A stretch of DNA of 64,000 bases, taken from NCBI GenBank assembly GCA_903884235.1, contig CAISEB010000030.1, positions 1 to 64,000 of the forward strand, given 5' to 3'. Below the pieces are notes generated by a model. The model ran no database searches, was not told the origin of the DNA, and worked only from the letters and a program-made list of their open reading frames with translations. Below are positions 434 to 16,758 of the stretch, in pieces; the first letter of the stretch is position 1; each line of letters starts with the position of its first letter. The position numbers and the translations under genes are program-made. The DNA comes from an uncultured Pseudomonadota bacterium (GTDB taxonomy: Bacteria > Pseudomonadota > Gammaproteobacteria > Steroidobacterales > Steroidobacteraceae).

Positions 434-1566
434 GTCGTGGCCGGTCGGGGCGCCGGGACACCGTCGTCATCGCGCCCGCCTGCGTAGGCGTGCCCGCGCA
501 GCGATGCCGCCTTCACGAGAGCCCACACGTCCATGCCAGGGGCGAGCCCGAGTTCGCGCACGGCCGCGCGCGTGATTCGGGCCATGAGCATCTCGCTGCC
601 GACCGCGAGCATCGCCAGCACGTCCTCGTCGGACTCGTCTTCGAGCGCCGCGACCACGGCCGGCAGCGCATTGCGGACCGACAGCGACCGCGGTTCCTCG
701 GTCGCGACGATCACGTCGCGAGCCAGGATGTGCAGGCGCAGGCGGTCGCCGACACGCGCGCCCGGCTGCGACAGCCGCAGGTGACCCGCGCCGAGGGGCA
801 GCGCGATGAGTCCGGTGGCGGCATCCACTTCACCGACGCGGGACTCGAGCACGGCACCGACGCCATCCGGCCCGATCAGGCGCCTCAGCGTCGCATCCAT
901 GAACAGCCCCGACGGGGCGCCTTCGGCGGCGACCTGGCCGCGGTCGACGAGCACGAGGTGTGTCGCGAGCCTGAGCACCTCGTCGTACTGGTGGCTGACG
1001 TGCAGCATCGGTACGCGGGCCGCGTCCCGCAGTCGCAGCAGGTAGGGCAGTACCTCCTCGCGGCGCGCGGCGTCGATCGACGCGAGCGGCTCGTCGAGCA
1101 ACAGCAAGCGGGGCTGCGCCAGCAGCGCTCGCCCCAGGGCGACGCGCTGGCGCTCGCCGCCGGACAGCCGATGTACCCGCCGGTCGAGCAGCGGGGCGAG
1201 GCCGAGCAGGTCGATGACCTCGCCAGCAGTCGCGACGCCACTGCGGCTGCCCGCGCGGCGTTCGCCGTACGCGAGGTTGCCGGCGACGTCGAGGTGCGGG
1301 AAGAGCCGAGCGTCCTGGAACACGTAGCCGATGCCGCGCTGGTGCGCCGGCACGTCGATCGATGCCGCGCTGTCCAGCCAGGTCTCGCCATCCACGCGAA
1401 TCGTCCCCGTCGCGGCGACGAGCCCGGCGAGCGCATTCACGATCGTGCTCTTGCCGGCGCCCGACGGCCCGTAGAGCGACACGACCCCCGGGGTCGGCGC
1501 GTGGAATCGGGCCTCGAGGCGGAACGCACCGCGCGACGCGCGGATGTCGACCTCGATGCTGTTCAC
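430..1566 (-). CDS. modC: Molybdate ABC transporter ATP-binding protein ModC
   Basis: ATPase subunit of the high-affinity molybdate importer, on the cytoplasmic face of the inner membrane. 378 aa, the usual ModC length. Walker A GPSGAGKST lies near residue 35, followed by the ABC signature LSGGERQRVALG, Walker B LLLLDEP and the H-loop histidine (HVSHQ). The C-terminal third is the Mop/TOBE oxyanion-binding region typical of ModC. Start is GTG at 1566, overlapping the modB stop by 4 bases (GTGA), so the two are translationally coupled. Molybdenum supplied here would feed molybdoenzymes; xdhC at 47-48 kb hints that the cell has a xanthine dehydrogenase-type enzyme. Confidence 0.93.
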   Translation of the reverse strand: MNSIEVDIRASRGAFRLEARFHAPTPGVVSLYGPSGAGKSTIVNALAGLVAATGTIRVDGETWLDSAASIDVPAHQRGIGYVFQDARLFPHLDVAGNLAYGERRAGSRSGVATAGEVIDLLGLAPLLDRRVHRLSGGERQRVALGRALLAQPRLLLLDEPLASIDAARREEVLPYLLRLRDAARVPMLHVSHQYDEVLRLATHLVLVDRGQVAAEGAPSGLFMDATLRRLIGPDGVGAVLESRVGEVDAATGLIALPLGAGHLRLSQPGARVGDRLRLHILARDVIVATEEPRSLSVRNALPAVVAALEDESDEDVLAMLAVGSEMLMARITRAAVRELGLAPGMDVWALVKAASLRGHAYAGGRDDDGVPAPRPATT

Positions 1567-2249
1567 GGGCCGAGCCGTGCGCGCAGTCGGCGCGACAGCG
1601 CCTCGGCGGCGATCAGGCCCGCGAAGCCGAGCGTGAGCGACAACGTGGCGAACCGCATCGCAGCGGCATCGCCGTCTGGCGACTGGATGGCCGTGTACAG
1701 GGCGAGCGGCAGCGTGCGCGTCTCGCCGGGGATGTTGCTGGCGAAGGTGATGACCGCCCCGAACTCGCCCAGGCCGGCGGCGAAGGCCGTCACGGCGCCG
1801 GCCAGGATGCCGGGCGCCATCAGCGGCAGGGTCACGCTGAAGAAGCGGTCGAGCGGGCCCGCGCCGAGCGTGCGTGCAGCCTCCTCGAGGCCAGGTGGGA
1901 TGCCCTCGAGCGTGAGCCGCATCGCCCGCACCATGAGCGGGAAGCTCATCACCGCCGTGGCGAGGGCGGCGCCGGTCGTCGTGAACGCGAGCCGTACGCC
2001 GAAGTGCGCGTACAGCCAGCCGCCGAGCGGGCCGCGCACGCCGAACACGACCAGCAGCAGGTAGCCGACGACGACCGGGGGCAGCACGAGCGGCAGGTGC
2101 ACGGCCGCATCCAGCAATGCGCGGCCGGCAAACCGGCCGCGCACCAAGAGCCAGGCCGCGAGCACCGCGAACGGCAGGCTCGCGGCGACGCTCTCGGTGG
2201 CGACGATCACGCTGAGCCGCAGCGCCTCGAGCTCGGCGTCGGTCAGCAC
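1563..2249 (-). CDS. modB: Molybdate ABC transporter permease ModB
   Basis: Inner-membrane channel of the molybdate importer, 228 aa with about five hydrophobic helices. The loop contacting ModC is visible as EEAARTLGAGPLDRF, the EAA motif of binding-protein-dependent permeases. The frame is open further upstream, but that extension is Arg/Ser-rich and not protein-like. The GTG at 2249 (VLTDAELEALRLS) gives the standard ModB N-terminus and length. No modA lies upstream; the next gene is an unrelated small protein, so the periplasmic molybdate-binding protein must be encoded elsewhere or be absent. Confidence 0.9.
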   Translation of the reverse strand: MLTDAELEALRLSVIVATESVAASLPFAVLAAWLLVRGRFAGRALLDAAVHLPLVLPPVVVGYLLLVVFGVRGPLGGWLYAHFGVRLAFTTTGAALATAVMSFPLMVRAMRLTLEGIPPGLEEAARTLGAGPLDRFFSVTLPLMAPGILAGAVTAFAAGLGEFGAVITFASNIPGETRTLPLALYTAIQSPDGDAAAMRFATLSLTLGFAGLIAAEALSRRLRARLGP

Positions 2250-2304
2250 GGCAGTGTTCCCGCGGACTGGCTCGGCACGCGACGGGGTCCGCGGCCGGCG
2301 CCGC

Positions 2305-2679
2305 TCAGGGCATCCGCAGCCGGCCGCCGCCTGGCAGGCCACCGCCCGGCTCGGGGATGACGAGCGACGAAGCCTGTTCGCGACGCATCTGCTGGAGTTC
2401 GCGCATCGTCTCCTCGATGCCGATCTTCGCGCCCTCGCCGAAGCCCGCGATGGCTTCCGCGAGCGTCGTGGCACCCGGCACCTCGAAGGTGATCGGGAGT
2501 GCGCCCATGGGCGTCATCACGGAGACCTGGCCGACGAAGAGCGTCGGACGGGCGGGATCCGCGGTGCCGTCGGTCTTGACCGGCACCATGACCCGCAGGG
2601 TCCCGACGCGGCGGTCGGTGTAGCTCTCCTCGCGATAGAGGTTCTCGGTGTCGAATTGGGCTTCGGTCGGGGCGTTCAT
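2305..2679 (-). CDS. Conserved protein of unknown function, 124 aa
   Basis: Start ATG at 2679 is preceded by GGAGA at good spacing; the open frame continues upstream but that part is low-complexity Arg/Ala. The product has no signal peptide or membrane segment, so it is probably cytoplasmic. Its N-terminal half is polar and acidic, a predicted beta-rich core contains V-rich strands (TLRVMVPVKTDG, then LFVGQVSV), and it ends in a Gly/Pro-rich tail. I cannot name a family. It lies 55 bases upstream of modB on the same strand and divergent from alr; a role in molybdate uptake is not indicated. Confidence 0.7.
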   Translation of the reverse strand: MNAPTEAQFDTENLYREESYTDRRVGTLRVMVPVKTDGTADPARPTLFVGQVSVMTPMGALPITFEVPGATTLAEAIAGFGEGAKIGIEETMRELQQMRREQASSLVIPEPGGGLPGGGRLRMP

Positions 2680-2809
2680 CGGGCTCTCCGGGGCTCCTCG
2701 GGTAGACGCGCAACGTAGCAGACGGCGGGGCTGTGCAGAAGCCAGCGTCCCCCGTGGCGGCCCCGGACCCCGTAGACTTGCGGCCTCCTGCCCGGCCGCG
2801 AGCCGACGA

Positions 2810-3916
2810 GTGAACGACCTGCACCGTGCGGCCGAGGCCGCACCGCCCGCCGAACTGCACATCGACCTCGATGCACTGGTCGCGAACTACCGTGCCCTGT
2901 GCGAACTGGCGCGGCCGGCGCAGGTGTCCGCGGTCGTCAAGGCGAACGCCTACGGGCTCGGCATCGGTCCGGTCGCGGCGGCGCTGGTGGGTGCGGGCTG
3001 CGAGGTGTTCTTCGTTTCGTCGCTGGCCGAGGGCTTCGAACTGCGCGCGATGCAGCCGGATGTCCGGGTGCTGGTGCTGGAGGGCGCCGGCGGGGCCATC
3101 GACGCCTGTCGTGCCGCGCGCCTCGTGCCGGTGCTGAATACGGTGGCCGAAGTGCGCGAGTGGGTTGGTCGGGCGGGCGGGGAGCCCGCGGTTCTCCAGC
3201 TCGACACCGGCATGAACCGGGCTGGCCTCGATGCGACCGACGTCGCCGAACTCGCCGCCGACACGCCACTCGTCTCGCGCTTGCGCCTCGACCTCGTGAT
3301 GACGCATCTGGCCTGTGCCGACGAGCCGGGTCATCCGCTGAACCGGCAGCAGGTCGATCGGTTCCGAGCTCTGCGCGCGCGATTGCCCGCGGCTCCGACC
3401 AGCATCGGCAATTCGGCCGGCACGTGGCTGGGGTCGGACTACCGCGGTGACCTCGTCCGGCCCGGGCTTGCGCTGTACGGCGGCCGTCCGCTGGCGAGCG
3501 GACCGAATCCGATGCGCCCGGTCGTGCGCCTCTGCGCGCGGGTACTCCAGCTGCGGACGCTCGGTGAAGCCGCGAGCGTGGGTTACGGGGCGAGCGCGCG
3601 GCTCTCGCCGGCCGCCCGCATCGCGACCGTGGGCGCGGGCTACGCGGATGGCTACCCGCGGGCGCTCGGCAACCGCGGCTACGCGGTGGTGGGCGGTGCC
3701 CGGGTGCCGGTGGTCGGCCGTGTCTCGATGGACCTGACGACGCTCGATGTCACCGGGCTCGACCCCGGGGCGATCTCGGTCGGGGACAGCGTCGACCTGC
3801 TCGGTGGCGGCGTGTCACTCGAGGACGCCGCGGAACTCGCCGGCACCGTCGCCTACGAGCTGCTCACCCGCCTGTCGACCCGCCTCGTCCGCCGCTACCG
3901 GGGCGGCACGGCCTGA
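2810..3916 (+). CDS. alr: Alanine racemase
   Basis: PLP enzyme interconverting L- and D-alanine, supplying D-Ala for peptidoglycan. 368 aa with a GTG start at 2810. The PLP lysine is K44 in the signature VVKANAYGLG. The second-half signatures VGYGA (catalytic Tyr region) and VGRVSMD are intact. Choosing GTG 2810 removes an Arg-rich upstream extension and puts the PLP Lys at the family's usual distance from the N-terminus. A GGTTCC-GCC-GGAACC hairpin follows the stop. With alanine dehydrogenase at 10.8 kb this suggests active D-/L-alanine turnover, but the genes are not in one operon. Confidence 0.95.
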   Translation: MNDLHRAAEAAPPAELHIDLDALVANYRALCELARPAQVSAVVKANAYGLGIGPVAAALVGAGCEVFFVSSLAEGFELRAMQPDVRVLVLEGAGGAIDACRAARLVPVLNTVAEVREWVGRAGGEPAVLQLDTGMNRAGLDATDVAELAADTPLVSRLRLDLVMTHLACADEPGHPLNRQQVDRFRALRARLPAAPTSIGNSAGTWLGSDYRGDLVRPGLALYGGRPLASGPNPMRPVVRLCARVLQLRTLGEAASVGYGASARLSPAARIATVGAGYADGYPRALGNRGYAVVGGARVPVVGRVSMDLTTLDVTGLDPGAISVGDSVDLLGGGVSLEDAAELAGTVAYELLTRLSTRLVRRYRGGTA

Positions 3917-3927
3917 CCCGGCGCGCT

Positions 3928-3942
3928 GGTTCCGCCGGAACC
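3928..3942 (+). terminator. Hairpin after alr, possible weak terminator
   Basis: GGTTCC (3928-3933), loop GCC, GGAACC (3937-3942). A perfect 6-bp stem 11 bases after the alr stop, with no T-run behind it, so intrinsic termination is uncertain. Confidence 0.35.
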
Positions 3943-4069: not shown

Positions 4070-5968
4070 GTGAATATCCGCGCGAAGGTCATCATCCTGC
4101 TGCTGTCCGTGTTCGCCACGCTCGCCCTGGTCGAGTGGGGGGTCGAGCGCGCGTTGCTGCTGCCGCGGTTCGAGCAGATCGAGACCGATTCGGCGCGCAC
4201 CGCCATGCGGCGGGTCAGCTTCGGCGTGGGCCAGGCCCTCGCGGGCCTGCAGGTCTCGGCGAACGACTGGGGTAACTGGGCCGATACCTACCGGTTCATG
4301 CAGGATCGCAATGGCGCCTTCGTACACGAAAACCTCGCGCCGGTGGCGTTGCGGCAGCTGCACCTGACCGCGCTCGCGTTCATCGACCTGGACGGTCGGG
4401 TCGTGATTTCCCGCGCACTCGATGGCGTCGCACTCGAATCGCTGGGCGAGGACCTGTTTCCCGGCGGGGAGATGCCAAAGACCGCCCAATGGCGGCGCAA
4501 CCTTGCGGAAGGCCGCCCGGCACAGGGGCTGATCGCGACTCGCAACGGCGCGATGCTCGCGGCGTTGTCGCCCGTGCTCGATGGTTTCGGTCGCGGGCCA
4601 GCGCGCGGCATGGTGTTCATGGGCCGGCTGCTGACGCCCACCGAGATCGCCGACATCGGTGCGCGCTCGCAGACCGACGTTGTGTTGGACGCCGTCCGCC
4701 GCCACGGGGAACCACCGATCGCTGCGGCCAGCGGTGGCCCAGGCACCATGGGCGATCCCGTGAGCGAGTCGGACGCAACGACGTCGGTGAGGCACACGTT
4801 TGCCGACGTCGACGGCGAACCGGTGCTCACGCTGCGCGTGGATGTCCCCCGGCAGATCACCACGGGTGCCGCCGCCACGGTCGCCTATGCCCGGCTGTTC
4901 ACGTTCGGCGCCGCGCTGCTCGTGCTGATCATCGTGCTCCTCGTTCTGGACCGGGAGGTGCTGGCACCGTTGTCGCGCGTCACGCGCCATGCGAGCGCGA
5001 TCGGCTCCGGGGACGACCTCACGCCACGACTCGGGCTCACGCGGGCGGATGAAATCGGCACGCTGGCCTCGGAGCTCGATCGCATGGTGGATCGGCTGGC
5101 CGAGTCGCGGCGTCGCCTCATCGACAACAGTTTCGAGTCCGGGCGCGCCGAGCTCGCGCGCGGCATCCTGCACAACATCGGCAACGCGATGACGCCGCTC
5201 GGCGTGCGCGTCGCCAAGCTCCAGGCCCGGCTGCGCGACGCGCCGGTCGCCGACCTCGAACGCGCACTTGCCGCGCGCGCCAGCGAACCGGAGGGCACCG
5301 AGCGGCAGGCCGACCTCGATGCCTTCGTGCGGCTCGTCGCCACGGAGCTCGCGGAGTCGGTTCGCCTCGGCGAAGCGGATGCCGAGGTCATCGCGCGCCA
5401 GTCGGGTGCCGTGCAGGCCGCGCTGACCGACCAGATGCGCTCGTCCCGCGGCGGTACGGTGATCGAGCCGGTCGACCTGCGTGCGCTCGTCGACCAGACG
5501 CTCGAGATCGTCCCGGATACGTGTCGCGACGAGATCCAGCTCGTGCTCGACCCGTCGCTGGCCGCGACCGGCACGGTGCGAGTCCCGCGCACCGTGCTGC
5601 GACTGGTGCTGCAGAACCTCGTGATCAACGCCGCCGAGGCGACGAGGGCTGCCGGCCGTGGCCGCGGCCGCGTCCACCTCAACGCGGCGCTCGTGCCGGC
5701 TGACGGCGGAACCCAGTTGCACATCACCTGCGCCGACGAGGGCGTCGGCATCGATTCGACGCATCTCGATCGTGTCTTCGAGCGCGGCTTCTCCACCAAG
5801 GGCGACACCGGCAATCGCGGCATCGGCCTGCACTGGTGCGCGACCGCGGTGGCCAGCCTCGGCGGCCGCATCTGGGCCGCGAGCGATGGCCACGGCCGCG
5901 GTGCCCGGTTCCATGTCTCCCTGCCCGTCCCCGATTCCACCCCCGTGCCCGCCACCCGGGCCGCGTGA
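4070..5968 (+). CDS. CHASE4-type membrane sensor histidine kinase
   Basis: 632 aa, GTG start. One N-terminal membrane helix (residues about 5-25), a periplasmic region of about 240 residues that reads like a CHASE4 sensor (WGNWADTY near residue 65), a second helix near 280, then a HAMP segment. The phosphoacceptor is H368 in LHNIGNAMTP, an H-box variant. The C-terminal ATPase has N-box NAAEAT, DEGVGID, FERGFSTK and the G2 box RGIGLHWC. It probably phosphorylates the response regulator encoded 8 bases downstream. The ligand is unknown. The repeats at 3943-4034 probably control the pair. Confidence 0.85.
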   Translation: MNIRAKVIILLLSVFATLALVEWGVERALLLPRFEQIETDSARTAMRRVSFGVGQALAGLQVSANDWGNWADTYRFMQDRNGAFVHENLAPVALRQLHLTALAFIDLDGRVVISRALDGVALESLGEDLFPGGEMPKTAQWRRNLAEGRPAQGLIATRNGAMLAALSPVLDGFGRGPARGMVFMGRLLTPTEIADIGARSQTDVVLDAVRRHGEPPIAAASGGPGTMGDPVSESDATTSVRHTFADVDGEPVLTLRVDVPRQITTGAAATVAYARLFTFGAALLVLIIVLLVLDREVLAPLSRVTRHASAIGSGDDLTPRLGLTRADEIGTLASELDRMVDRLAESRRRLIDNSFESGRAELARGILHNIGNAMTPLGVRVAKLQARLRDAPVADLERALAARASEPEGTERQADLDAFVRLVATELAESVRLGEADAEVIARQSGAVQAALTDQMRSSRGGTVIEPVDLRALVDQTLEIVPDTCRDEIQLVLDPSLAATGTVRVPRTVLRLVLQNLVINAAEATRAAGRGRGRVHLNAALVPADGGTQLHITCADEGVGIDSTHLDRVFERGFSTKGDTGNRGIGLHWCATAVASLGGRIWAASDGHGRGARFHVSLPVPDSTPVPATRAA

Positions 5969-5976
5969 GGTATCCC

Positions 5977-7887
5977 GTGTCGACCCAAACCCGTGCCCCG
6001 ATCCGCATCCTGGTCGCCGACGACGAGCCGGAGATCCTCGCGGCATACCGCGAGATCTTCACCAGCGTCGACGAGGCCACGAGTGCGACGCAGCGTCGCC
6101 AGCTCGCTGCGCGGCTCTTCGACGGTGCCGCTACGGCGCCGGCGCCGGCAGTCGCGCGGTTCCCGCCACGTGCATCCTTCGAGGCGGACTACTGCAGCAG
6201 TGCCGAGGCGGCGGTGGCTGCCGTGCAGGCGGCGCTCGATGCGGGCAGCCCCTATGCCATCGTGTTCCTCGACATGCGCATGCCCCCCGGACGGGACGGT
6301 ATCTGGGCGGCCACCGAGATCCGGCGCCTCGACCCGGTCGCCGAGATCGCGGTGTGCACGGCCTACTCCGACGTCGATCCTGGCGATATCGGCGGGCGCG
6401 TGCCGCCGGAGGACAAGCTGTCCTACCTGCAGAAGCCCTTCCATCCGCACGAGGTGCGGCAGATGGTCATCGCGCTCGCCTCCAAGTGGCGCGCCGAACG
6501 GCACATCACGAGGCTCGCCTACTTCGACTCGCTGACCGGCCTGCCGAACCGAGAGCAGGTGCACAACCGCCTGCGCTCCGCCCTGCTCGGGATGGGCGAG
6601 GGTCGAGGCAGTGTCGGGCTGCTGTACATCGACCTCGACAATTTCAAGCGCATCAACGACACGCTCGGGCATGGCGTCGGCGACGAGGTGCTCACGGTCG
6701 TCGCCGGGCGACTGCGCGAGACGCTGCGGCTCGGTACCGGCGTGATGCCGGATCCGGAGCCGACCGACCGACCCGGCGACATCGGACGGCTCGGTGGAGA
6801 CGAGTTCATGGTGGTGCTGCCCGAGATCGGCGCCTCGGAGGATGCCGGGCGGGTCGCGGACCGCATCATCGGCGCCCTGCAGGTGCCCATGCAGCTGACG
6901 CGCCACACGGTCGTCGTGACGCCGAGCATCGGCATCGCGGTCGCGCCGACCGACGGCGCCGACGCCGAGACGCTGCTGCGGCACGCGGACCTCGCGATGT
7001 ATTTCGCGAAGCGTCGCTGGCCCGGCACGTTCGCCTACTTCGACGTGTCGATGAACGAAGGTGCGCTGCAGCGCTATACGCTCGAGGAGAAGCTGCGCGG
7101 CGCCCTGGAGCGCGGCGAGCTGAGTCTCCACTACCAGCCGCAGATCGACATGAAGTCGGGCGAGATCGCCGGCATGGAGGCGTTGCTGCGCTGGACCAAC
7201 GAAGAACTGGGCGTCGTGCCGCCCAACGATTTCATCCCGATCGCGGAGAGTGCGGGCCTCATCGTGCCGATCGGCGACTGGGTGCTGCGGAGCGCGTGCG
7301 CGCAGGCGCGCAAGTGGTGCGACGAGGGCCTGGACCTCAAGCGCATCGCCGTCAACGTCGCCGCGCAGCAGTTCGCGATGCAGTCCTTCCCGCTGCTGGT
7401 GGCCGAGGTCCTCAAGGAGACGGGGTTGCCGCCGGCCATGCTCGAGCTCGAGATCACAGAATCCATGGTCATGACCGACGAGAGCCGCGCCGGGCGCGTC
7501 CTGTCGTCCCTGCATGCGCTCGGCGTCACGGTCGCGATCGACGACTTCGGCACCGGCTACTCGAACTTCCAGCGCCTGCGGCGCCTGAACATCGATCGAC
7601 TGAAGATGGACCGGTCGTTCGTGCGCGAACTCGGTGGCGACAGCGACGACCGGGCGATCGCCGCGGCCATCATCGCGATGGCGAAGTCCCTCAAGGTCGA
7701 CGTGGTCGCGGAGGGCGTCGAGTCCTATCCGCAGCTGCGGTTCCTGCAGGACCACATGTGTGCCGAGGCGCAGGGGTTCCTGCTCAGCCGCGCGTTGCCG
7801 GCCGGCGAGGCGCGCTTGCTGCTCGAGCGCGCATCGACCCAGTTCGATGGCAGCCGCACCCAGAAGATCAGGCGCCTGGTCGTCTGA
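5977..7887 (+). CDS. Response regulator with GGDEF and EAL domains
   Basis: 636 aa; GTG at 5977 with GAGG eight bases upstream. The receiver domain has the acidic pair DDE near residue 15, phosphoacceptor D99 (FLDMRMP) and Lys in LQKPF. Next is a GGDEF domain with intact LGGDEF (G273) and an EAL domain with EAL at E401, followed by NVAAQQF, ELEITES and DDFGTGYSN, so both cyclic-di-GMP synthesis and breakdown look possible. The receiver is unusual: about 50 extra residues, Ala-rich, separate the first helix from the phosphoacceptor strand. It is the cognate output of the kinase just upstream. The stop lies 9 bases from the end of the convergent receptor gene. Confidence 0.9.
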   Translation: MSTQTRAPIRILVADDEPEILAAYREIFTSVDEATSATQRRQLAARLFDGAATAPAPAVARFPPRASFEADYCSSAEAAVAAVQAALDAGSPYAIVFLDMRMPPGRDGIWAATEIRRLDPVAEIAVCTAYSDVDPGDIGGRVPPEDKLSYLQKPFHPHEVRQMVIALASKWRAERHITRLAYFDSLTGLPNREQVHNRLRSALLGMGEGRGSVGLLYIDLDNFKRINDTLGHGVGDEVLTVVAGRLRETLRLGTGVMPDPEPTDRPGDIGRLGGDEFMVVLPEIGASEDAGRVADRIIGALQVPMQLTRHTVVVTPSIGIAVAPTDGADAETLLRHADLAMYFAKRRWPGTFAYFDVSMNEGALQRYTLEEKLRGALERGELSLHYQPQIDMKSGEIAGMEALLRWTNEELGVVPPNDFIPIAESAGLIVPIGDWVLRSACAQARKWCDEGLDLKRIAVNVAAQQFAMQSFPLLVAEVLKETGLPPAMLELEITESMVMTDESRAGRVLSSLHALGVTVAIDDFGTGYSNFQRLRRLNIDRLKMDRSFVRELGGDSDDRAIAAAIIAMAKSLKVDVVAEGVESYPQLRFLQDHMCAEAQGFLLSRALPAGEARLLLERASTQFDGSRTQKIRRLVV

Positions 7888-7896
7888 GCGAGACGG

Positions 7897-10068
7897 TCAG
7901 CGAGCCTCGCCACCGAATCGCGCGGTGAGCTTCGCCCCGAATGTGCGCGGATCGCCCAGCTGGACGTACAGCCGATTCGGATAGTCCGGCGGCTCGAGTC
8001 CGAAGTAGAAGCCGCGCACCGGGTAGGTCTTGTTCGCCAGGTTGCGACCGTAGATCGATACGCTGAAGCGCGGCGTATCCCAGCCGACCCGCGCGTGCAC
8101 CAGCGCGTACGCCGAGGATCGCGTCTCGTTCGGCGGCAGGTCGAAGTAGTAGCCGCCCATGCCCGTGATGTCGAGGCGCGCGTACAGGCCCGCGGGACTG
8201 CGGTAGGTGGCATTCAGCGCTCCTTGCCATCGCGGTGCGTTCGCCAGTTCGCGCGACACGGTGAGCGAGCCCGCATCGGCGACCCGCACGAAGTCCGTGA
8301 ACCTCGTCCGCTGCAGGCCGAGGCTCGCTCCGAGTTCCAGGCGTGGCGTCGCGGCCAGCCGCGCCGTCGCCTCCAGGCCGTGGTTGCGGCCACTCGCTGC
8401 GTTTCCGGTATAGAGGATGAACGTGTTCGGATTCGTCGGGTCCGTCTGCACGCTGCTGCGGACCTGCGCGTCGTGGCGCTCGAGCAGGTACACATCGACA
8501 TCGATGCTCGCGCGCCGATTCGCCGACGCCGCCTTGTAGCCGAACTCGAGGTTCCAGTCGGATTCCGGCCGATAGCTGATCTCGTCGGGCCCGAGCCCCT
8601 GGCTCAGGTTGAATCCACCGGCCTTGTAGCCTCGCGCGAGCAGCGCGTACGCCGTCGCGGATGGCGTGACGTCGAAGTCCAGCGTCGCATGCCCGCCCCA
8701 CAGCCGCTCCGTCGGCCCGAATGCGTGCGAGTCCGAGCCGCCGTAGGCCCGGTCCTGCACGAGATCGGAGTACGACGCGCCCTGGTGCTCGCCGCGCAGG
8801 CCCAGCGACCACCGCAGGCGGTGCGCGAGACGCCCGTCGAGCACGCCGAACAGCGCCAGGCGATCGTTGCGGTAGCCGCTCGTGACGACGGTGTCCTGCT
8901 GGTAGGTGCCATTCAGCGGGTCGATGGAGATCCCGGCGCTCGTATCCCGCAGCGATTCGTGCAGGCGCATCGCGTACGCGCCCACGAGCCACGAGAGCGG
9001 GGCGTCGCCGCGACTGGCCACGCGAAGCTCGGCGCTCGAGGTCTGCCGATGGCGCAGCTGGAGTTCCGTGAAGTCGTAGGTGAAGGGCGCCCAGTAGGAG
9101 GGGTTGCCCCAGTCGCCGTCGTAGCCGTAGGTCACGCGGGTATCGGCATGGGAGGCGATCGCGGTGATTTCGGCGCCCGGCAGGCCGGTGTAGGTCAGGT
9201 GCGCCGAGGCGCCGGTCGAATGCTGTGCGTCGACGCTCGGGTGGTCGGAGTGCGTCGTGCGGCCGTTCTCGGGGGCGAACGCGTCATAGCCGTCGTCGAG
9301 CCTGACCTGGAGCACGGCGAGGTCGATGCGGGTGTCGTCCCGTGGCTGGTAGCGCCAGCGGCCGCGCAGCGTCGACTCGTCGCGGGCATTCGTGTCGTGC
9401 CGGTGGAGGTAGTCGTTGTAGTAGAACCCGTCGCTCGTGTAGTGCTGTGCCGCGACCCGGAACGTCGAGTCGAGCGCGGTGACGGGACCAGTCGCGACCG
9501 CGCCGATGCTGTGCATGCCGTAGTCGCCGCCGTCGAGTTCGACGCGACCGCCGAACGTCGGCTCGGGCGTCGCGCTGGACACGTAGATCAGGCCGGCGAG
9601 CGCGTTGGCGCCATAGCGCGTTCCCTGTGGGCCGCGCAGCACCTCGACGCGGTCGACGTCGAACAGCGTCGCCGCGCCGCCGAGTCCGCTGAAGTCGATG
9701 TCGTCGATCAGGAAGCCGACCGACGGATTGGGTGCGCCCTCGTACTGCTCGAGCTCGCCGATGCCGCGCAGCTGGAAGTAGCGTGGGCGCGCGCTGTCGC
9801 CGGCCCAGTTCAGGTTCGGGACGAGGCCAAGCACGTCCTCCAGCTGCTGCTGGCCCGACTGGTGCAGGGTCGTGCTGTCGAGCACGGAGACGCTGCCCGC
9901 GACCTGGATGCCCGGCATCGGCCGCAGGGTGGCGGTCACCACGACCTCGCTCAGTTCGCCGGCCACTTCGGTCGCCTGCGGGCTCGCGGCCACGAGCCAT
10001 GCGGCAGCGGGCAGAACGATGCGGAGGAGGCGGGACACGAGGTCCCGCGGACGAGTCGTCGCGGACAT
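7897..10068 (-). CDS. TonB-dependent outer-membrane receptor, TPP-riboswitch controlled
   Basis: 723 aa. Signal peptide (residues about 1-35), a TonB-box-like EVVVTAT, a plug domain with VDRVEVLRGPQG and YGANALAGLI, then a 22-strand-type barrel ending in a C-terminal aromatic/charged strand. Start ATG 10068 is fixed by the riboswitch immediately upstream, whose conserved GTAGGGAG supplies the Shine-Dalgarno. The TPP aptamer is the evidence for substrate: the receptor probably takes up thiamine, its phosphates or pyrimidine/thiazole precursors, as proposed for other TPP-regulated TonB receptors. The inner-membrane transporter is not in the window. Confidence 0.9.
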   Translation of the reverse strand: MSATTRPRDLVSRLLRIVLPAAAWLVAASPQATEVAGELSEVVVTATLRPMPGIQVAGSVSVLDSTTLHQSGQQQLEDVLGLVPNLNWAGDSARPRYFQLRGIGELEQYEGAPNPSVGFLIDDIDFSGLGGAATLFDVDRVEVLRGPQGTRYGANALAGLIYVSSATPEPTFGGRVELDGGDYGMHSIGAVATGPVTALDSTFRVAAQHYTSDGFYYNDYLHRHDTNARDESTLRGRWRYQPRDDTRIDLAVLQVRLDDGYDAFAPENGRTTHSDHPSVDAQHSTGASAHLTYTGLPGAEITAIASHADTRVTYGYDGDWGNPSYWAPFTYDFTELQLRHRQTSSAELRVASRGDAPLSWLVGAYAMRLHESLRDTSAGISIDPLNGTYQQDTVVTSGYRNDRLALFGVLDGRLAHRLRWSLGLRGEHQGASYSDLVQDRAYGGSDSHAFGPTERLWGGHATLDFDVTPSATAYALLARGYKAGGFNLSQGLGPDEISYRPESDWNLEFGYKAASANRRASIDVDVYLLERHDAQVRSSVQTDPTNPNTFILYTGNAASGRNHGLEATARLAATPRLELGASLGLQRTRFTDFVRVADAGSLTVSRELANAPRWQGALNATYRSPAGLYARLDITGMGGYYFDLPPNETRSSAYALVHARVGWDTPRFSVSIYGRNLANKTYPVRGFYFGLEPPDYPNRLYVQLGDPRTFGAKLTARFGGEAR

Positions 10069-10159
10069 TGCGCTCCCTACGCCGGTACTAACCGGATCAG
10101 GTTCAACGGGTTTGCGGGCCAATCCCGCATCTCAGGCCCACGACGGGCCACCCCAGCAA
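10069..10159 (-). promoter_or_regulatory. TPP (THI-box) riboswitch
   Basis: On the minus strand the RNA carries the hallmarks of the TPP aptamer in order: GGGGTGG, CCTGAGAT, ACCCGTTGAACCTGATC, a variable CCGGTTAGTACCGG hairpin, and GCGTAGGGAG. P1 can form from TTGC (10158-10155 side) with GCAA, whose last A is the A of the receptor's ATG. The 3' conserved GGGAG is at Shine-Dalgarno distance from that ATG. I infer direct translational control: when TPP is bound, the ribosome site is inside the folded aptamer. No separate expression platform fits in the space. Confidence 0.95.
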
Positions 10160-10167
10160 GGCCACGG

Positions 10168-10196
10168 AGGATACACGCCGCACGCAACGGCGGGAA
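10168..10196 (-). promoter_or_regulatory. Candidate promoter of the TPP-controlled receptor
   Basis: On the minus strand TTCCCG (10196-10191) and TATCCT (10173-10168) are separated by 17 bases, and the predicted start falls just before the aptamer. The -35 match is weak; position is the main support. Confidence 0.4.
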
Positions 10197-10228
10197 GGCG
10201 AGTGAGGGGCGCGCTCAGGCGGTCCGCG

Positions 10229-10690
10229 TCAGCGCACCGGAAGTTCGCGGGACTTCTGCACCGTCCGAAGTGCGAAGCTCGAATGGACGCGGGCGACGTG
10301 CGGCAGGCTCGTCAGGTGCCGGCTGTGGACCCGCTCGAAATCCGCGGTGTCGGCGACGACGACCCGCAGCAGGTAGTCGTAGTCGCCCGACATCAGGTAG
10401 CACTCCATGACCTCGGGCACCTTGCGAACGGCCTGCTCGAATGCCGCGAGGTCCGCACGCTCCTGGCGCTCGAGCGTGATCGAGACGAACACGTTGACGC
10501 CCAGTCCCGCCTTCTGCTCGTTCAGGACCGCGGCGTATCCCTCGATCAGTCCCGACGCCTCGAGCGCGCGGATCCGGCGCAGGCACGCCGATTCGGAGAG
10601 GTTCACGCGGGCCGCGAGTTCGCTGTTCGGCAGGCGGCCTTCGCGCTGCAACGCCTGCAGGATCGTGCGGTCGTAGCGGTCGAGTTCCAT
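10229..10690 (-). CDS. Lrp/AsnC-family transcriptional regulator
   Basis: 153 aa. N-terminal helix-turn-helix (LDRYDRTILQALQREGRL to LIEGYAA) followed by the AsnC/RAM ligand domain (VFVSITLERQ, then VMECYLMSGDYDYLL), the full layout of Lrp proteins. It is transcribed divergently from alanine dehydrogenase across a 133-base gap, a pairing in which the Lrp-type protein usually senses alanine or leucine and activates ald. The regulatory target is inferred from position. Confidence 0.9.
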   Translation of the reverse strand: MELDRYDRTILQALQREGRLPNSELAARVNLSESACLRRIRALEASGLIEGYAAVLNEQKAGLGVNVFVSITLERQERADLAAFEQAVRKVPEVMECYLMSGDYDYLLRVVVADTADFERVHSRHLTSLPHVARVHSSFALRTVQKSRELPVR

Positions 10691-11989: not shown

Positions 11990-12108
11990 GGTCATCCGCA
12001 GGCCCCCGGGGTTCTGCGGTCGCTACGTATTCGCCCAGCCGTTCCCGCGGCGCCTGATCGGACCCTGCAAGCACGGGCGCACACCTACGCGCCATGCGGG
12101 GGGTCGGG

Positions 12109-13200
12109 ATGGAGACGTTCTACGACGTACTGCGCCGCCAGGGCATCACGCGCCGCAGCTTTCTCAAGTTCTGCAGCCTGACGGCGACGTCGCTGGGGCT
12201 CGGATCCTACTTCGCACCGCGTATCGCGCACGCGCTCGAGACCAAGCCCCGAACGCCGGTCCTCTGGCTGCACGGGCTCGAGTGCACCTGTTGTTCCGAG
12301 TCCTTCATCCGGTCCGCGCATCCGCTCGCCAAGGACGTCGTCCTGTCGATGCTGTCGCTGGACTATGACGACACGCTGATGGCCTCGGCCGGGTTCCAGG
12401 CGCAGGCCTGCCTCGACGAGGTGATGGCGAAGTACAAGGGCAACTACATCCTCGCGGTCGAGGGCAACCCGCCGCTCAACGAGGATGGGATGTACTGCAT
12501 CACGGGCGGCAAGCCGTTCGTGGAGGAGCTGAAGCGGGTCGCCGCAGACGCCAAGGCGGTCATCGCCTGGGGCGCCTGCGCCTCCTGGGGCTGCGTGCAG
12601 GCCGCGAAGCCGAATCCGACGCACGCGGTGCCGATCGACAAAGTCATTCGCGACAAGCCGATCATCAAGGTCCCGGGCTGTCCGCCCATCGCCGAGGTGA
12701 TGACGGCGGTCGTGACCTACATGCTGACCTTCGATCGCCTGCCTGAACTCGACCGGCAGGGCCGGCCGAAGATGTTCTACGGCCAGCGGATCCACGACAA
12801 GTGCTACCGCCGCCCGCATTTCGACGCGGGCCAGTTCGTCGAGAGCTGGGACGACGAGGGCGCCCGCAAGGGCTACTGCCTCTACAAGATGGGCTGCAAG
12901 GGCCCGACCACGTACAACGCCTGCTCCACGACTCGGTGGAACGACGGCGTCTCGTTCCCCATCGGCTCGGGCCACGGCTGCATCGGATGCTCCGAGGACG
13001 GGTTCTGGGACAAGGGTTCGTTCTACGACCGGGTCACGGGCATCAAGCAGTTTGGCATCGAGGCCAATGCCGACAAGGTCGGTGGGACTCTCGCGGCGGT
13101 CACGGGCGCAGCGGTCGCCGTGCACGCGGGAATCACGGCGCTGACCCGCGCCAAGCTGAACCACGGCAAGGGGTTCGGCAAAGACGGTTCGGGCGAGTGA
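12109..13200 (+). CDS. hupS: [NiFe]-hydrogenase small subunit, oxygen-tolerant type
   Basis: Electron-transfer subunit of a periplasm-facing, membrane-bound uptake hydrogenase; 363 aa. The Tat signal RRSFLK is at residues 15-20, and a C-terminal membrane anchor is at about 322-340. Cluster ligands include C59, C62 and C157. Extra cysteines C61 (ECTCC) and C162 (SWGC) are at the positions that give the proximal 4Fe-3S cluster in oxygen-tolerant group 1d enzymes such as E. coli Hyd-1 and Ralstonia MBH. Start ATG 12109 gives the conserved N-terminus [12 protein letters not shown]. First gene of the cluster, 12 bases before hupL. Confidence 0.97.
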
Positions 13201-13212
13201 GGGGGCACGGCC

Positions 13213-15003
13213 ATGACAGCTTATGAAACGCAGGGCTTCAAGATCGACGACTCCGGCAAGCGCGTCGTCGTCGATCCGGTCACCCGAATCGAGGGCCATC
13301 TCCGCGTCGAGGTGAATCTCGACAAGGACAACGTCATCCGCAACGCCGTCTCCACGGGGACGATGTGGCGCGGCCTCGAGGTCATCCTCAAGGGCCGCGA
13401 TCCGCGCGACGCCTGGGCGTTCACGGAGCGCATCTGCGGAGTGTGCACCGGCACCCATGCGCTGACCTCCGTGCGTGCGGTCGAGGACGCGCTCAAGATC
13501 GATATTCCCGAGAACGCGAACACGATCCGCAACATCATGCAGCTGACGCTGCAGGTGCACGATCACCTCGTCCATTTCTACCACCTGCACGCGCTCGACT
13601 GGGTCGACGTCGTCTCCGCGCTGAAGGCCGATCCGAAGGCGACCGCGGAGCTCGCGCAGTCCATCTCGCCGTGGCCGATGGCCTCGCGCGGCTACTACGC
13701 CGACCTGCAGAACCGGATCAAGAAGTTCGTCGAGTCGGGCCAGCTCGGCCCGTTCATGAATGGCTACTGGGGCAATCCCGCCTACAAGCTGCCGCCCGAG
13801 GCCAACCTGATGGCGGTCGGCCACTACCTCCAGGCGCTCGATTTCCAGAAGGAGATCGTAAAGATCCACACGATCTTCGGTGGCAAGAACCCGCACCCGA
13901 ACTGGCTGGTCGGCGGCATGCCCTGCGCGATCAACGTCAACGACACCGGTGCCGTCGGCGCGATCAACATGGAGCGCCTCAACATGGTCTCGTCGATCAT
14001 CGACCAGGCCGTGGACTTCATCGAGCAGGTGTACATCCCGGACCTGCTGGCGATCGCCGGGTTCTACAAGGGCTGGCTGTACGGTGGCGGGCTGTCGAGC
14101 CACAACGTCATGTCGTACGGCGACATTCCCGAGCATGCGAACGACTACAGCGCCAAGAACCTGCTGCTGCCGCGTGGTGCGATCATCAACGGCGACCTGA
14201 CCAAGATCCACGAGGTCGATCTCAAGGACCCGGAGCAGATCCAGGAGAGCGTCGACCACTCCTGGTACACGTACCCGGACGGTACGAAGTCGCTGCATCC
14301 GTGGGACGGCATCACCAGCCCGAAATTCGAGCTGGGACCCCGGACCAAGGGTACGAAGACCAACGTCGAATCCTTCGACGAGGGCGCGAAGTACTCGTGG
14401 ATCAAGGCGCCACGCTGGCGCGGCAACGCGATGGAAGTCGGTCCGCTCGCGCGATACATCATCGGCTACGCGCAGAACAACCCCGAGTTCAAGGAGCCGG
14501 TCGAGGCCGTCCTCAAGAAGCTCGACGTGCCGGTCACGGCGCTGTTCTCGACGCTGGGCCGCACCGCCGCGCGCGGCCTCGAGTGCCAGTGGGCCGTGCA
14601 CAAGCTGAAGTACTTCCAGAACAAGCTGATCGCGTCGATCAAGGCCGGCGACACGGCTACGGCCAACACGACCAACTGGGATCCGGCGACCTGGCCGAAG
14701 GAGGCCAAGGGCGCCGGGTTCACCGAGGCACCGCGCGGCGCGCTCGGTCACTGGATCGTCATCAAGGACGGCAAGATCGACAACTACCAGGCGGTCGTGC
14801 CGACCACCTGGAACGGCAGTCCGCGTGATGGCAAGGGCCAGATCGGCGCGTTCGAGGCGGCACTGATGAACACGCCGGTCGCGAAGGCCGATCAGCCGCT
14901 GGAGATCCTGCGCACGCTGCACTCCTTCGATCCATGCCTCGCGTGCTCGACGCACGTGATGTCGCCCGACGGGGCCGAGATGACCAAGGTCAAGGTTCGC
15001 TAG
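13213..15003 (+). CDS. hupL: [NiFe]-hydrogenase large subunit
   Basis: Catalytic subunit holding the Ni-Fe(CN)2CO centre; splits H2 on the periplasmic side after Tat export with HupS. 596 aa. Nickel ligands are in the N-terminal RICGVC (C75, C78) and C-terminal DPCLACSTH (C575, C578). The 15 residues after H581 ([15 protein letters not shown]) are the maturation peptide removed by HupD after metal insertion. The sequence looks complete with no frame disruption. Confidence 0.98.
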
Positions 15004-15026
15004 GCCGGGACTGACAGGAGGCGCTC

Positions 15027-15728
15027 ATGTTGCTCCACAATTCAGTCGACACGGTTCCTGGCAACAAGGACCTGAAGTCGATCTACATCTACGAGGCCCC
15101 GGTGCGGTTGTGGCACTGGGTGATGTTCCTCGCCGTATCGGTGCTCATCGTCACGGGACTGCTGATCGCGTACCCGCCGCCGTCGACGAACGGCGAGGCC
15201 TCGGCGCACTTCCTCTTCGGTTACATCCGCTTCGCGCACTTCGCCGCGGGCTACACGCTCGCGGTGTCGTGGTTGCTGCGCATCTACTGGTCCTTCGTCG
15301 GCAACGACTACGCGCGCCAGCTGTTCCTCGTGCCGATCCGCAACCGCATCTGGTGGCGGGAGTTCCTGTACGACATCAAGTCGTATGCGTTCATGCACGT
15401 GCGCGAGATCAAGTACAGCGGCCACAACCCGATGGCGCAGGCGGCGATGGCGTTCATCCTTGTACCGGTGAGCGTCTTCATGATGGTCACCGGATTTGCG
15501 CTCTACTCCGAGGGAGCCGGCAAGGGCTCCTGGGCGGACCACCTCTTCGGGTGGGTCATCCCGCTGTTCGGCCAGAGCCAGACGGTGCACACCTGGCACC
15601 ACCTTGGGATGTGGCTCATGGTGACGTTCGTGATCGTCCACTTTTACATGGTGATCCGTCAGGACATCACGACACGCGAGAGCATCCTGAGCACGATGAT
15701 CAGCGGTTACCGCACGTTCAAGGACTAG
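15027..15728 (+). CDS. hupC: Hydrogenase cytochrome b subunit
   Basis: Di-heme membrane cytochrome b that anchors HupSL and passes electrons to quinone. 233 aa with four hydrophobic helices and heme-ligand histidines in conserved positions (VRLWHW near residue 28, FAHFAAGY, HTWHHLGMW near 190). A good ribosome site (CAGGAGG) precedes ATG 15027. It is the HyaC/HoxZ-type partner expected for an oxygen-tolerant respiratory hydrogenase. The next gene starts 1 base after its stop. Confidence 0.95.
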   Translation: MLLHNSVDTVPGNKDLKSIYIYEAPVRLWHWVMFLAVSVLIVTGLLIAYPPPSTNGEASAHFLFGYIRFAHFAAGYTLAVSWLLRIYWSFVGNDYARQLFLVPIRNRIWWREFLYDIKSYAFMHVREIKYSGHNPMAQAAMAFILVPVSVFMMVTGFALYSEGAGKGSWADHLFGWVIPLFGQSQTVHTWHHLGMWLMVTFVIVHFYMVIRQDITTRESILSTMISGYRTFKD

Positions 15729-15729
15729 G

Positions 15730-16050
15730 GTGAGCGGCCTGGTGAGGGTGGGGAGCGGGAACGATGCGGGACGCCGGCCGCTGAAACGCGGTCGGCGTCC
15801 GCAGCATCCTGGACAGTTCCTCGACTCGCGGTTCCTCCAGCCGCTCGCGCTGTCGCAGGACGCGCTGGCGACGGCGCTCGGCATCTCCCGCCGGCGCGTC
15901 AATGAAATAGTCAACGGCCGTCGTGGGTTGACCGCGGACACCGCCCTTCGGCTCGCCCGCTACTTCGGGACCGGTCCCGAGCTCTGGCTGCACCTGCAGG
16001 CGGCCTGGGACCTGCATATCGCACGACAGCAATTCGACGGGCGGACCTGA
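15730..16050 (+). CDS. HigA-type XRE DNA-binding protein, no partner toxin
   Basis: 106 aa, GTG start one base after the hupC stop; GTG codons at 15742 and 15748 are alternatives. Residues about 25-100 match the HigA antitoxin fold: RPQHPGQFL, the helix-turn-helix SQDALATALGISRRRVNEIVNGRRGLTADTA (given in parts here), then YFGTGPELWLHLQ. No HigB-like toxin is encoded beside it. It is locked into the hydrogenase operon between hupC and hupD, where rhizobial hup clusters have no such gene. The palindrome at 16113-16129 lies 63 bases behind its stop, so I infer a local transcription regulator rather than an antitoxin. Confidence 0.85.
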   Translation: MSGLVRVGSGNDAGRRPLKRGRRPQHPGQFLDSRFLQPLALSQDALATALGISRRRVNEIVNGRRGLTADTALRLARYFGTGPELWLHLQAAWDLHIARQQFDGRT

Positions 16051-16076
16051 TCGATCGCACCAGCGTGGTGCGCGGT

Positions 16077-16106
16077 TTCCCGATCGCGGTGGGCATCCCT
16101 TATAGG
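16077..16106 (+). promoter_or_regulatory. Candidate promoter for hupD onward
   Basis: TTCCCG (16077-16082) and TATAGG (16101-16106) are 18 bases apart in the 102-base gap before hupD. The palindrome at 16113-16129 would then cover the transcription start, as repressor operators often do. The box matches are modest. Confidence 0.35.
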
Positions 16107-16112
16107 TCGCGA

Positions 16113-16129
16113 GTAACGCCTGTCGTTAC
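16113..16129. promoter_or_regulatory. Palindromic site 2 (GTAACG-N5-CGTTAC) before hupD
   Basis: GTAACG (16113-16118), spacer CCTGT, CGTTAC (16124-16129). Arms and spacing are identical to the site before hupS, but the spacer sequence differs, which favours a protein dimer site over shared ancestry of the flanks. Confidence 0.6.
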
Positions 16130-16152
16130 AGTCCACCCCTGCTCTTCTGGGG

Positions 16153-16758
16153 GTGGCCGTGGACGACGCGCTGGTGCTGGGGATCGGCAACGTGCTCTGG
16201 GCCGATGAAGGCTTCGGGGTCCGCTGCGTCGAGGCTTTCGATGAAGCCTGGACGCTTCCTGCTGCCGCGAAATCGCTCGACGGCGGAACGCAGGGTCTCT
16301 ACCTCCTGCCGTTCGTGCAGGCGACACGTCGCCTGATCATCTTCGATGCGATCGACTTCGCGCTCGAGCCGGGCACGCTGCGCGTCCTCGAGGGCGACGC
16401 GGTGCCTCGCTACCTCGGTGCCCGCAAGACAAGCCTGCACCAGACCGGATTCCAGGAGGTGCTCGCACTCGCGGCATTGACCGGGACGCTGCCCGATCCC
16501 ATCGTGCTGATCGGCGTCCAGCCCGTCGAGTTCGAGGACTACGGCGGCAGCCTGCGGCCGCTCGTCGCGTCACGGATTCCGCTGGCCATCGACCTGGCCC
16601 TCGCGCGCCTCGTGGAATGGGGGCTCGCCCCGGTGCGCCGCGAGGCGCCTTGCCCACTCGCATCCCCACTGAGCCTCGCGCGCTACGAATCGGAGCGACC
16701 GTCCGCGGCCAGCGCCTGTCGCGTCGGCGATGCGCGCTTCCTGCCTGTCGGGGACTGA
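16153..16758 (+). CDS. hupD: Hydrogenase maturation endopeptidase HupD
   Basis: Cleaves the C-terminal peptide of HupL after nickel is in place. 201 aa. Metal-sensing residues of the HyaD/HybD family are present: Glu in ADEGFG (near residue 18), Asp in FDAIDF and His in SLHQTGF. The start is taken as GTG 16153; GTG 16159 in the same frame is equally possible. It heads the second block of hydrogenase genes, behind a 102-base gap carrying a candidate promoter and palindrome. Confidence 0.94.
   Translation: MAVDDALVLGIGNVLWADEGFGVRCVEAFDEAWTLPAAAKSLDGGTQGLYLLPFVQATRRLIIFDAIDFALEPGTLRVLEGDAVPRYLGARKTSLHQTGFQEVLALAALTGTLPDPIVLIGVQPVEFEDYGGSLRPLVASRIPLAIDLALARLVEWGLAPVRREAPCPLASPLSLARYESERPSAASACRVGDARFLPVGD

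Follow-up and report, generated by a model that had tools for sequence, protein, structure and literature searches.

Riboswitches that control translation directly have been described in the survey of Barrick and Breaker (2007, PMC2258182) as those with at most 15 nt from the aptamer core to the start codon. According to the same survey, TPP riboswitches are among the classes in which sequestration of the ribosome binding site inside the aptamer is commonest, the role of the ribosome binding site is taken by the purine-rich, conserved 3' end of the aptamer, and direct control is most frequent in Actinobacteria and Cyanobacteria. For thiC of E. coli, an anti-P1 structure, a sequestering stem and a Rho-linked pause have been reported, with Rho-dependent termination following the binding of TPP (PMC5234074).

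TPP riboswitches have also been linked to TonB-dependent receptors. The receptor omr1, listed as a potential transporter of vitamin B1, has a TPP riboswitch nearby in two SAR86 and two Flavobacteriales clusters (PMC10881298), and OMthi (BT2390) of Bacteroides thetaiotaomicron is a TPP-riboswitch-linked TonB receptor with a PnuT partner, the deletion of which in a strain lacking biosynthesis led to a higher thiamine requirement (PMC5613172). Thiamine caused no significant change of expression in the transport operons of B. thetaiotaomicron, and the report calls it uncertain at which level control acts (PMC5613172). Because direct attenuation, omr1 and OMthi are thus described in print, both the mechanism and the association of a TPP riboswitch with a TonB receptor are already known, a single riboswitch element of this kind being ordinary by itself, and what is new here is the present element and its compact P1 variant.

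The locus described here belongs to an uncultured bacterium of the Steroidobacteraceae and lies in a stretch of 64,000 nt, hereafter the window, in which a TPP riboswitch stands immediately before the start codon of a gene for a TonB-dependent receptor. We consider it probable, with good though not full confidence, that this riboswitch controls a receptor importing thiamine or thiamine phosphates in an apparent thiamine auxotroph, and that it does so by direct exclusion of the ribosome; that the RNA binds TPP, that ribosome exclusion represses the gene and what the receptor carries are all three points that we infer from sequence comparisons.

The locus resembles the directly attenuated riboswitches of the 2007 survey (PMC2258182) in that the start lies less than 15 nt from the end of the aptamer and the purine-rich 3' end would act as ribosome binding site, but unlike the picture given in the survey, the direct type is here the commoner one (106 of 164 loci) in a receptor family of Steroidobacterales and their kin, and P1 carries a 2-nt bulge and, in 6 of the 15 genus genomes, takes in the A of the AUG. 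It is similar to thiC of E. coli in that a TPP aptamer would govern access to the ribosome binding site and the AUG, and differs from the more elaborate arrangement reported there in that just 5 nt lead from GGGA to the ATG (PMC5234074). With omr1 (PMC10881298) and OMthi (PMC5613172) it shares a TonB receptor linked to a TPP riboswitch, both likenesses being drawn from descriptions and not from sequence, and OMthi comes from another phylum.

The riboswitch and the receptor start

The Rfam model RF00059 matches the minus strand from 10165 to 10057 over its full length (model positions 1-105 of 105) with 75.5 bits and an E-value of 4.5e-13, the gathering score being 54.3 bits. This is the sole Rfam match at the gathering threshold within the window and the only TPP match in the genome to which the window belongs (4.12 Mb, 95% complete). 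The original prediction had placed a TPP riboswitch with THI-box landmarks on the minus strand at 10069-10159, coordinates which correspond to the aptamer core, and had proposed a search with the Rfam TPP model as a check; the outcome of that search confirms the observation of a TPP riboswitch beside the receptor start. The conserved core, that is CUGAGA, ACCUGAUC and GCGUAGGGA together with helices P1 to P5, is present in its entirety in the Rfam alignment. GGGAG, the conserved 3' end of the aptamer (10073-10077, minus strand; recognized by eye, in the Rfam alignment and among the pairs of the energy models), is Shine-Dalgarno-like and precedes the ATG (10068-10066) with a gap of 4 nt, in keeping with the ribosome-site distance that had been predicted. 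Counted from the last base of the conserved GGGA (10074), the ATG begins 5 nt further on, within the 15 nt of direct translation attenuation, and overlaps P1. In the modelled pairs and in the Rfam alignment, the 5' strand of P4, CCU (10099-10101, minus strand), has as its partner AGG at 10078-10076, which overlaps GGGAG.

The receptor gene (7897-10068, minus strand) encodes 723 amino acids with both of the domains of TonB-dependent receptors, Plug (PF07715, 4e-15) and barrel (PF00593, 3.9e-24), and from these domains and a search with the receptor protein its product is a predicted importer of thiamine or thiamine phosphates. Its start codon (10066-10068, minus strand) has a counterpart at a similar position in all 15 loci of the genus. 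Translation could conceivably begin at a GTG at codon 11 instead, in frame and 30 nt downstream, which would leave a signal peptide still possible and make the overlap between the ATG and P1 a matter of chance. We regard this as exceedingly improbable, given that the ATG lies 2-8 nt after GGGA (GGAA in L035) in 15 of 15 genus loci, that it is the only candidate start listed in L011 and L029, that the next one in L019 and L046 is more than 100 nt further on, and that the GTG of the window touches a stable hairpin.

The downstream neighbour (5836-7887, plus strand), with receiver, GGDEF and EAL domains, is convergent with the receptor gene, which therefore has no partner gene behind it. Upstream, a gene for an Lrp/AsnC-family regulator (10229-10690, minus strand) lies on the same strand, 69 nt from the aptamer core; it is kept in L003, L011, L012 and L013 (84-94% identity) and was not found in L019. 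The gene beside it, on the opposite strand, is by eye alanine-dehydrogenase-like. No sigma-70-like promoter was found in 9950-10350, so that read-through transcription from the lrp-like gene into the riboswitch is possible. Elsewhere in the window, a cluster at 12094-16758 (plus strand) resembles by eye a membrane-bound [NiFe] hydrogenase, with small and large subunits, cytochrome b and a maturation protease.

Occurrence in related genomes

Among the 148 genomes that were scanned for TPP sites (the own genome and those of its genus, family and order), such sites are present in 118, in 115 of them above the family cut-off, and number 127 altogether. For most of these (109) the automatic calling placed the same receptor family downstream; 8 adjoin thiC, at places that agree with the ThiC matches, another 5 stand 301-488 nt ahead of a PnuC-family gene, and the last 5 remained uncalled, L005, L029 and L067 being cut by contig ends, L096 having been taken in the wrong frame and L127 having been missed by the pattern. 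When named genomes were searched with the receptor protein, 74 of the best 80 of 84 loci had a TPP riboswitch above threshold. The others among these best 80 are L159, L160, L164 and L180, in which the sequence ahead of the match amounts to no more than 17 to 136 nt, and L203 and L212, which are true exceptions without TPP at the Rfam threshold. Some contigs are common to the TPP-site set and the receptor-protein set. The named relatives include Steroidobacter, Steroidobacteraceae, Povalibacter uvarum and Woeseiaceae, names from which a placement in the Steroidobacterales is probable. Povalibacter uvarum DSM 26723, a cultured relative, has this receptor together with a TPP riboswitch (L189), with a platform of the distant type described below. 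At L201 the TPP match (2454-2561) falls inside a joined receptor match (1501-3939), an arrangement which suggests two receptor copies or a misassembly.

A PnuC-family gene follows on the same strand within 4.5 kb at 91 of the 127 TPP sites, so that the kind of linkage described for omr1 and OMthi is found in the family both at the level of the receptor (74 of the best 80 of 84 loci) and of the transporter. The genus of the window has no such gene within 4.5 kb downstream of the riboswitch in any of its 15 genomes; in 6 of the 15 the riboswitch and a PnuC-family gene share one contig, 52-85 kb apart and on opposite strands, and the riboswitch there therefore governs the receptor alone. Across the 148 genomes, which are not independent, the riboswitch tends to occur together with the PnuC family and apart from ThiC: 113 have both riboswitch and PnuC family, 5 the riboswitch alone, 8 PnuC alone and 22 neither, and the corresponding numbers for riboswitch and ThiC, with the same dependence, are 9, 109, 13 and 17. 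The site coordinates and genome lists behind the PnuC linkage and these presence tables were transferred by hand. Of the 17 genomes that have neither a TPP match nor ThiC, some may be incomplete assemblies and others may have a different thiamine source. At four loci (L036, L071, L103 and L112) the TPP riboswitch is followed by a short frame, which by eye we take to be YkoF-like, and then by a PnuC-family gene.

Thiamine supply and the receptor substrate

Thiamine genes have reportedly been the subject of a comparative study by Rodionov et al. in 2002. The genome of the window yielded no match to the ThiC, ThiG, ThiE/TMP-TENI or TPK families, absences which could be assembly gaps because the genome is 95% complete; the same searches in 14 control genomes found ThiC in 13, ThiG in 14, ThiE/TMP-TENI in 11 and TPK in 7. 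At the level of the genus, neither ThiC nor ThiE was matched in any of the 15 genomes and a PnuC-family gene is present in all 15. ThiL is present in the own genome (335.3 bits), and a PnuC-family transporter gene lies on the same contig as the riboswitch, about 84 kb away, where it overlaps a gene for a ThiK-like kinase by 4 nt (L134:3982-5468; contig C30, about 94-96 kb). No TPP match accompanies this pair. In NCBIfam the PnuC-family protein passes the cut-off for PnuC, a nicotinamide riboside transporter (59.6 against 42.45 bits), and the kinase scores 86.8 bits for the NCBIfam thiamine kinase, far below its cut-off of 299.45, and higher (112.1 bits) for GntI, also below its cut-off of 357; it is from their context that we take the former to be a thiamine transporter (PnuT) and the latter to have a role with thiamine. 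The bacterium is apparently a thiamine auxotroph, and the simplest route of uptake would lead through the receptor, PnuT, the ThiK-like kinase and ThiL.

Because precursors would be unusable by the known pathway where ThiE is missing, thiamine or its phosphates are the likely substrate, and gene content makes their import the most likely function of the receptor. This is consistent with the proposal, made at the outset, of an outer-membrane importer of thiamine compounds, with which the missing biosynthesis genes, the salvage genes and the prevalence of the riboswitch at receptor loci all agree. The receptor might alternatively take up HMP or thiazole, as precursors of thiamine, or some unrelated compound, its connection with thiamine being one of control only, a reading that would suit its no more than generic match to solved receptors (pesticin, pyoverdine and colicin I receptors) and the nicotinamide riboside name given to its PnuC-family partner. 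It is nevertheless very unlikely, as the known route offers no way of joining precursors where ThiE/TMP-TENI has no match, and both the PnuC linkage at 91 of 127 sites and the kinase gene adjacent to PnuC in the own genome fit intact thiamine. An importer of thiamine or its phosphates under such a riboswitch suggests how apparent thiamine auxotrophs, in a lineage known mostly from metagenome-assembled genomes, could tune their uptake of vitamin B1.

P1 and the start codon

At the locus of the window, UUGC (10159-10156, minus strand) and GCAA (10071-10068) can form four P1 pairs, the 3' arm being separated from GGGA by a 2-nt bulge, GC (10073-10072), and the outermost base of P1 being the A of the ATG. 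That this A is able to pair in a TTGC/GCAA helix had been part of the original prediction, and the comparison among relatives speaks for that register. The Rfam-like register would give 3 pairs at this locus, and the Rfam alignment shows two non-standard pairs there. Among 102 unique direct-type loci, the bulged register reaches at least 4 consecutive pairs in 33, whereas 200 partner shuffles gave 13.1 on average and 21 at most, a comparison in which fifteen registers were tried and the shuffles leave the kinship among loci in place. The bulge-free, Rfam-like register reaches at least 4 pairs in 7 of the 102 (shuffled mean 5.2). Relatives have exchanged arms such as ACCU/AGGU and GCCU/AGGC. 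The bulged register falls short of 4 consecutive pairs in 69 of the 102 loci, the single best register per locus is the bulged one in 38 and the Rfam-like one in 34, and at the 56 distant-type loci registers other than that of UUGC/GCAA perform better. The bulged P1 thus appears to have better covariation support across relatives than the Rfam P1, though many loci pair otherwise. Four loci were excluded from this test and retained in the set of 164 loci as well as in the tree described below, namely L125 and L126, which the loose aptamer pattern had placed with 3 mismatches and in which no P1 anchor was found, and L203 and L212, which that pattern had admitted although Rfam found no TPP in them.

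Within the genus, UUGC is combined with GCAAUG, that is with the A of the AUG inside P1, in 6 of the 15 genomes; in L035, L043 and L052 UUGC and GCAA are preserved and the AUG is displaced downstream by 1-2 nt, and the remaining 6 have different P1 arms. Because only 6 of the 15 have the overlap, it is tolerated rather than required, a compact variant and not a conserved requirement.

Mode of control

In the mechanism that we propose, TPP, when plentiful, would bind the nascent leader and lock the aptamer, which would keep GGGAG, as the Shine-Dalgarno sequence, in P4 and the junction (P4 taking AGG of AGGGAG) and, in P1, the A with which the AUG begins; with both sequestered, the 30S subunit would be unable to load and no receptor would be made. 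When TPP is scarce, P1 would open, the ribosome would capture GGGAG and the AUG, and the receptor would be made. The aptamer itself would be the platform, with no separate expression platform, a possibility already raised in the original prediction and one with which the spacing agrees, since the ATG of the window stands 5 nt after GGGA and the start lies at -1 to 14 nt from it in 106 of 164 loci.

In energy models both Shine-Dalgarno guanines are paired in P4 with or without a forced aptamer. The A of the AUG is unpaired with a probability of 0.09-0.53 when the aptamer is left unforced (six transcript lengths) and of 0.00 when it is forced, at most of the lengths tried A and G of the AUG are largely paired without forcing as well, and the unforced minimum-energy fold already contains the UUGC/GCAA P1 at most lengths. 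Because the Shine-Dalgarno guanines and the AUG are already largely paired unforced, the models show no ligand-dependent switch, and the occlusion of both by the ligand is therefore a step that we infer. The stability of a TPP-bound aptamer comes partly from tertiary contacts, which such energy models do not contain. An anti-aptamer pairing with the first codons, suggested by the 151-nt minimum-energy fold of the window, was also considered and set aside: in a duplex test of own against permuted partners (the 15 genus loci and the first 60 of the 106 direct loci, 16 region pairs each) the energies were not clearly beyond permutation, the lowest fraction being 0.234.

The riboswitch may also be mainly transcriptional, in which case TPP would block ribosome loading or lengthen a pause near the start, Rho would terminate early and the drop in translation would be secondary. 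Control of thiC in E. coli is reported to work partly in this way (PMC5234074), and in the receptor gene a GC-rich hairpin, at +21 to +39, might cause such a pause. However, 9950-10350 yielded no terminator-like site, and since 106 of 164 loci have their start no more than 14 nt away from GGGA, regulation would seem to act on initiation; together these observations make a mainly transcriptional switch rather unlikely and favour direct exclusion of the ribosome.

Two types of platform on one receptor gene

The distance from GGGA to the start of the receptor gene in 164 unique loci, which include L203 and L212, unconfirmed by Rfam, is -1 to 14 nt in 106 (direct type), 15-26 nt in none and more than 26 nt in 58 (distant type), a bimodal distribution, the starts having been called automatically as the first start of the longest frame and some of them being doubtful (e.g., L062, L101, L115 and L116). 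Ahead of the ATG of distant-type loci, the mean amount of structure has its maximum between -27 and -4 (a 24-nt window), which is what a sequestering hairpin would produce. By eye, the leaders of L026, L037 and L042, all of the distant type, have CCGGATCTCC-like sequences that are partly complementary to GATCCGG of the aptamer and precede an SD-like AGGAGA, and the receptor gene would there seem to have an anti-aptamer platform of the classical kind.

In a receptor tree of 158 rows the label of direct or distant type changes at least 18 times, 13 of these changes being forced by well-supported branches, and the mean for shuffled labels is about 46; adjacent direct and distant labels (L095/L108 and L079/L094) may reflect doubtful start calls. 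The clade that holds the receptor of the window and its nearest kin has 20 rows, 13 of them from the genus, and all are direct. These loci form a natural series in which one receptor stands under direct and distant platforms, making it possible for the evolution of riboswitch expression platforms to be studied on one gene.

A hairpin in the coding region

The hairpin at +21 to +39 (10030-10048, minus strand; codons 7-13) has 7 bp, GCGGGAC-CTCGT-GTCCCGC. It was noticed by eye first and tested afterwards in related loci, so that the following values overstate the evidence. In nt +10 to +51, 12 of the 15 genus loci have a best hairpin of at most -6 kcal/mol and 3 do not; of 700 control windows from the same genes, 26.7% contain such a hairpin. 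Among the putative gene starts of the window, 16 of 44 reach this value, the receptor included, these genes and starts being unannotated and set by a crude rule. Synonymous recoding gave a Stouffer z of 3.87 for the genus loci, with 5 of 15 individually at p < 0.05 and a next highest z of 2.64 among the 12 offsets tried in the genus genes, and elsewhere -4.80 for 91 other direct loci, the opposite trend, and 0.45 for 58 distant loci. We regard the apparent enrichment of a start-proximal coding hairpin in the genus as a lead and not as a result.

The permuted-duplex test found no conserved pairing of the coding-hairpin region with the aptamer. Competition of the 3' arm for the Shine-Dalgarno sequence was considered and rejected, as by eye the GCGC-type arms of several genus members do not complement GGGA. 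It is unlikely that the hairpin is a second RNA part of the direct TPP switch in the genus. If it were, it might act as a pause hairpin, giving TPP the time to bind ahead of ribosome loading, or as a structure that confines initiation to the AUG in P1, and would then constitute a coding-region expression platform for a riboswitch otherwise without one. Its position about 21 nt after the AUG is, we presume, just beyond the initiation footprint of the ribosome. In L001, L003 and L019 the arms of the hairpin lie within a nucleotide of the same place, and both their sequence and the encoded amino acids differ.
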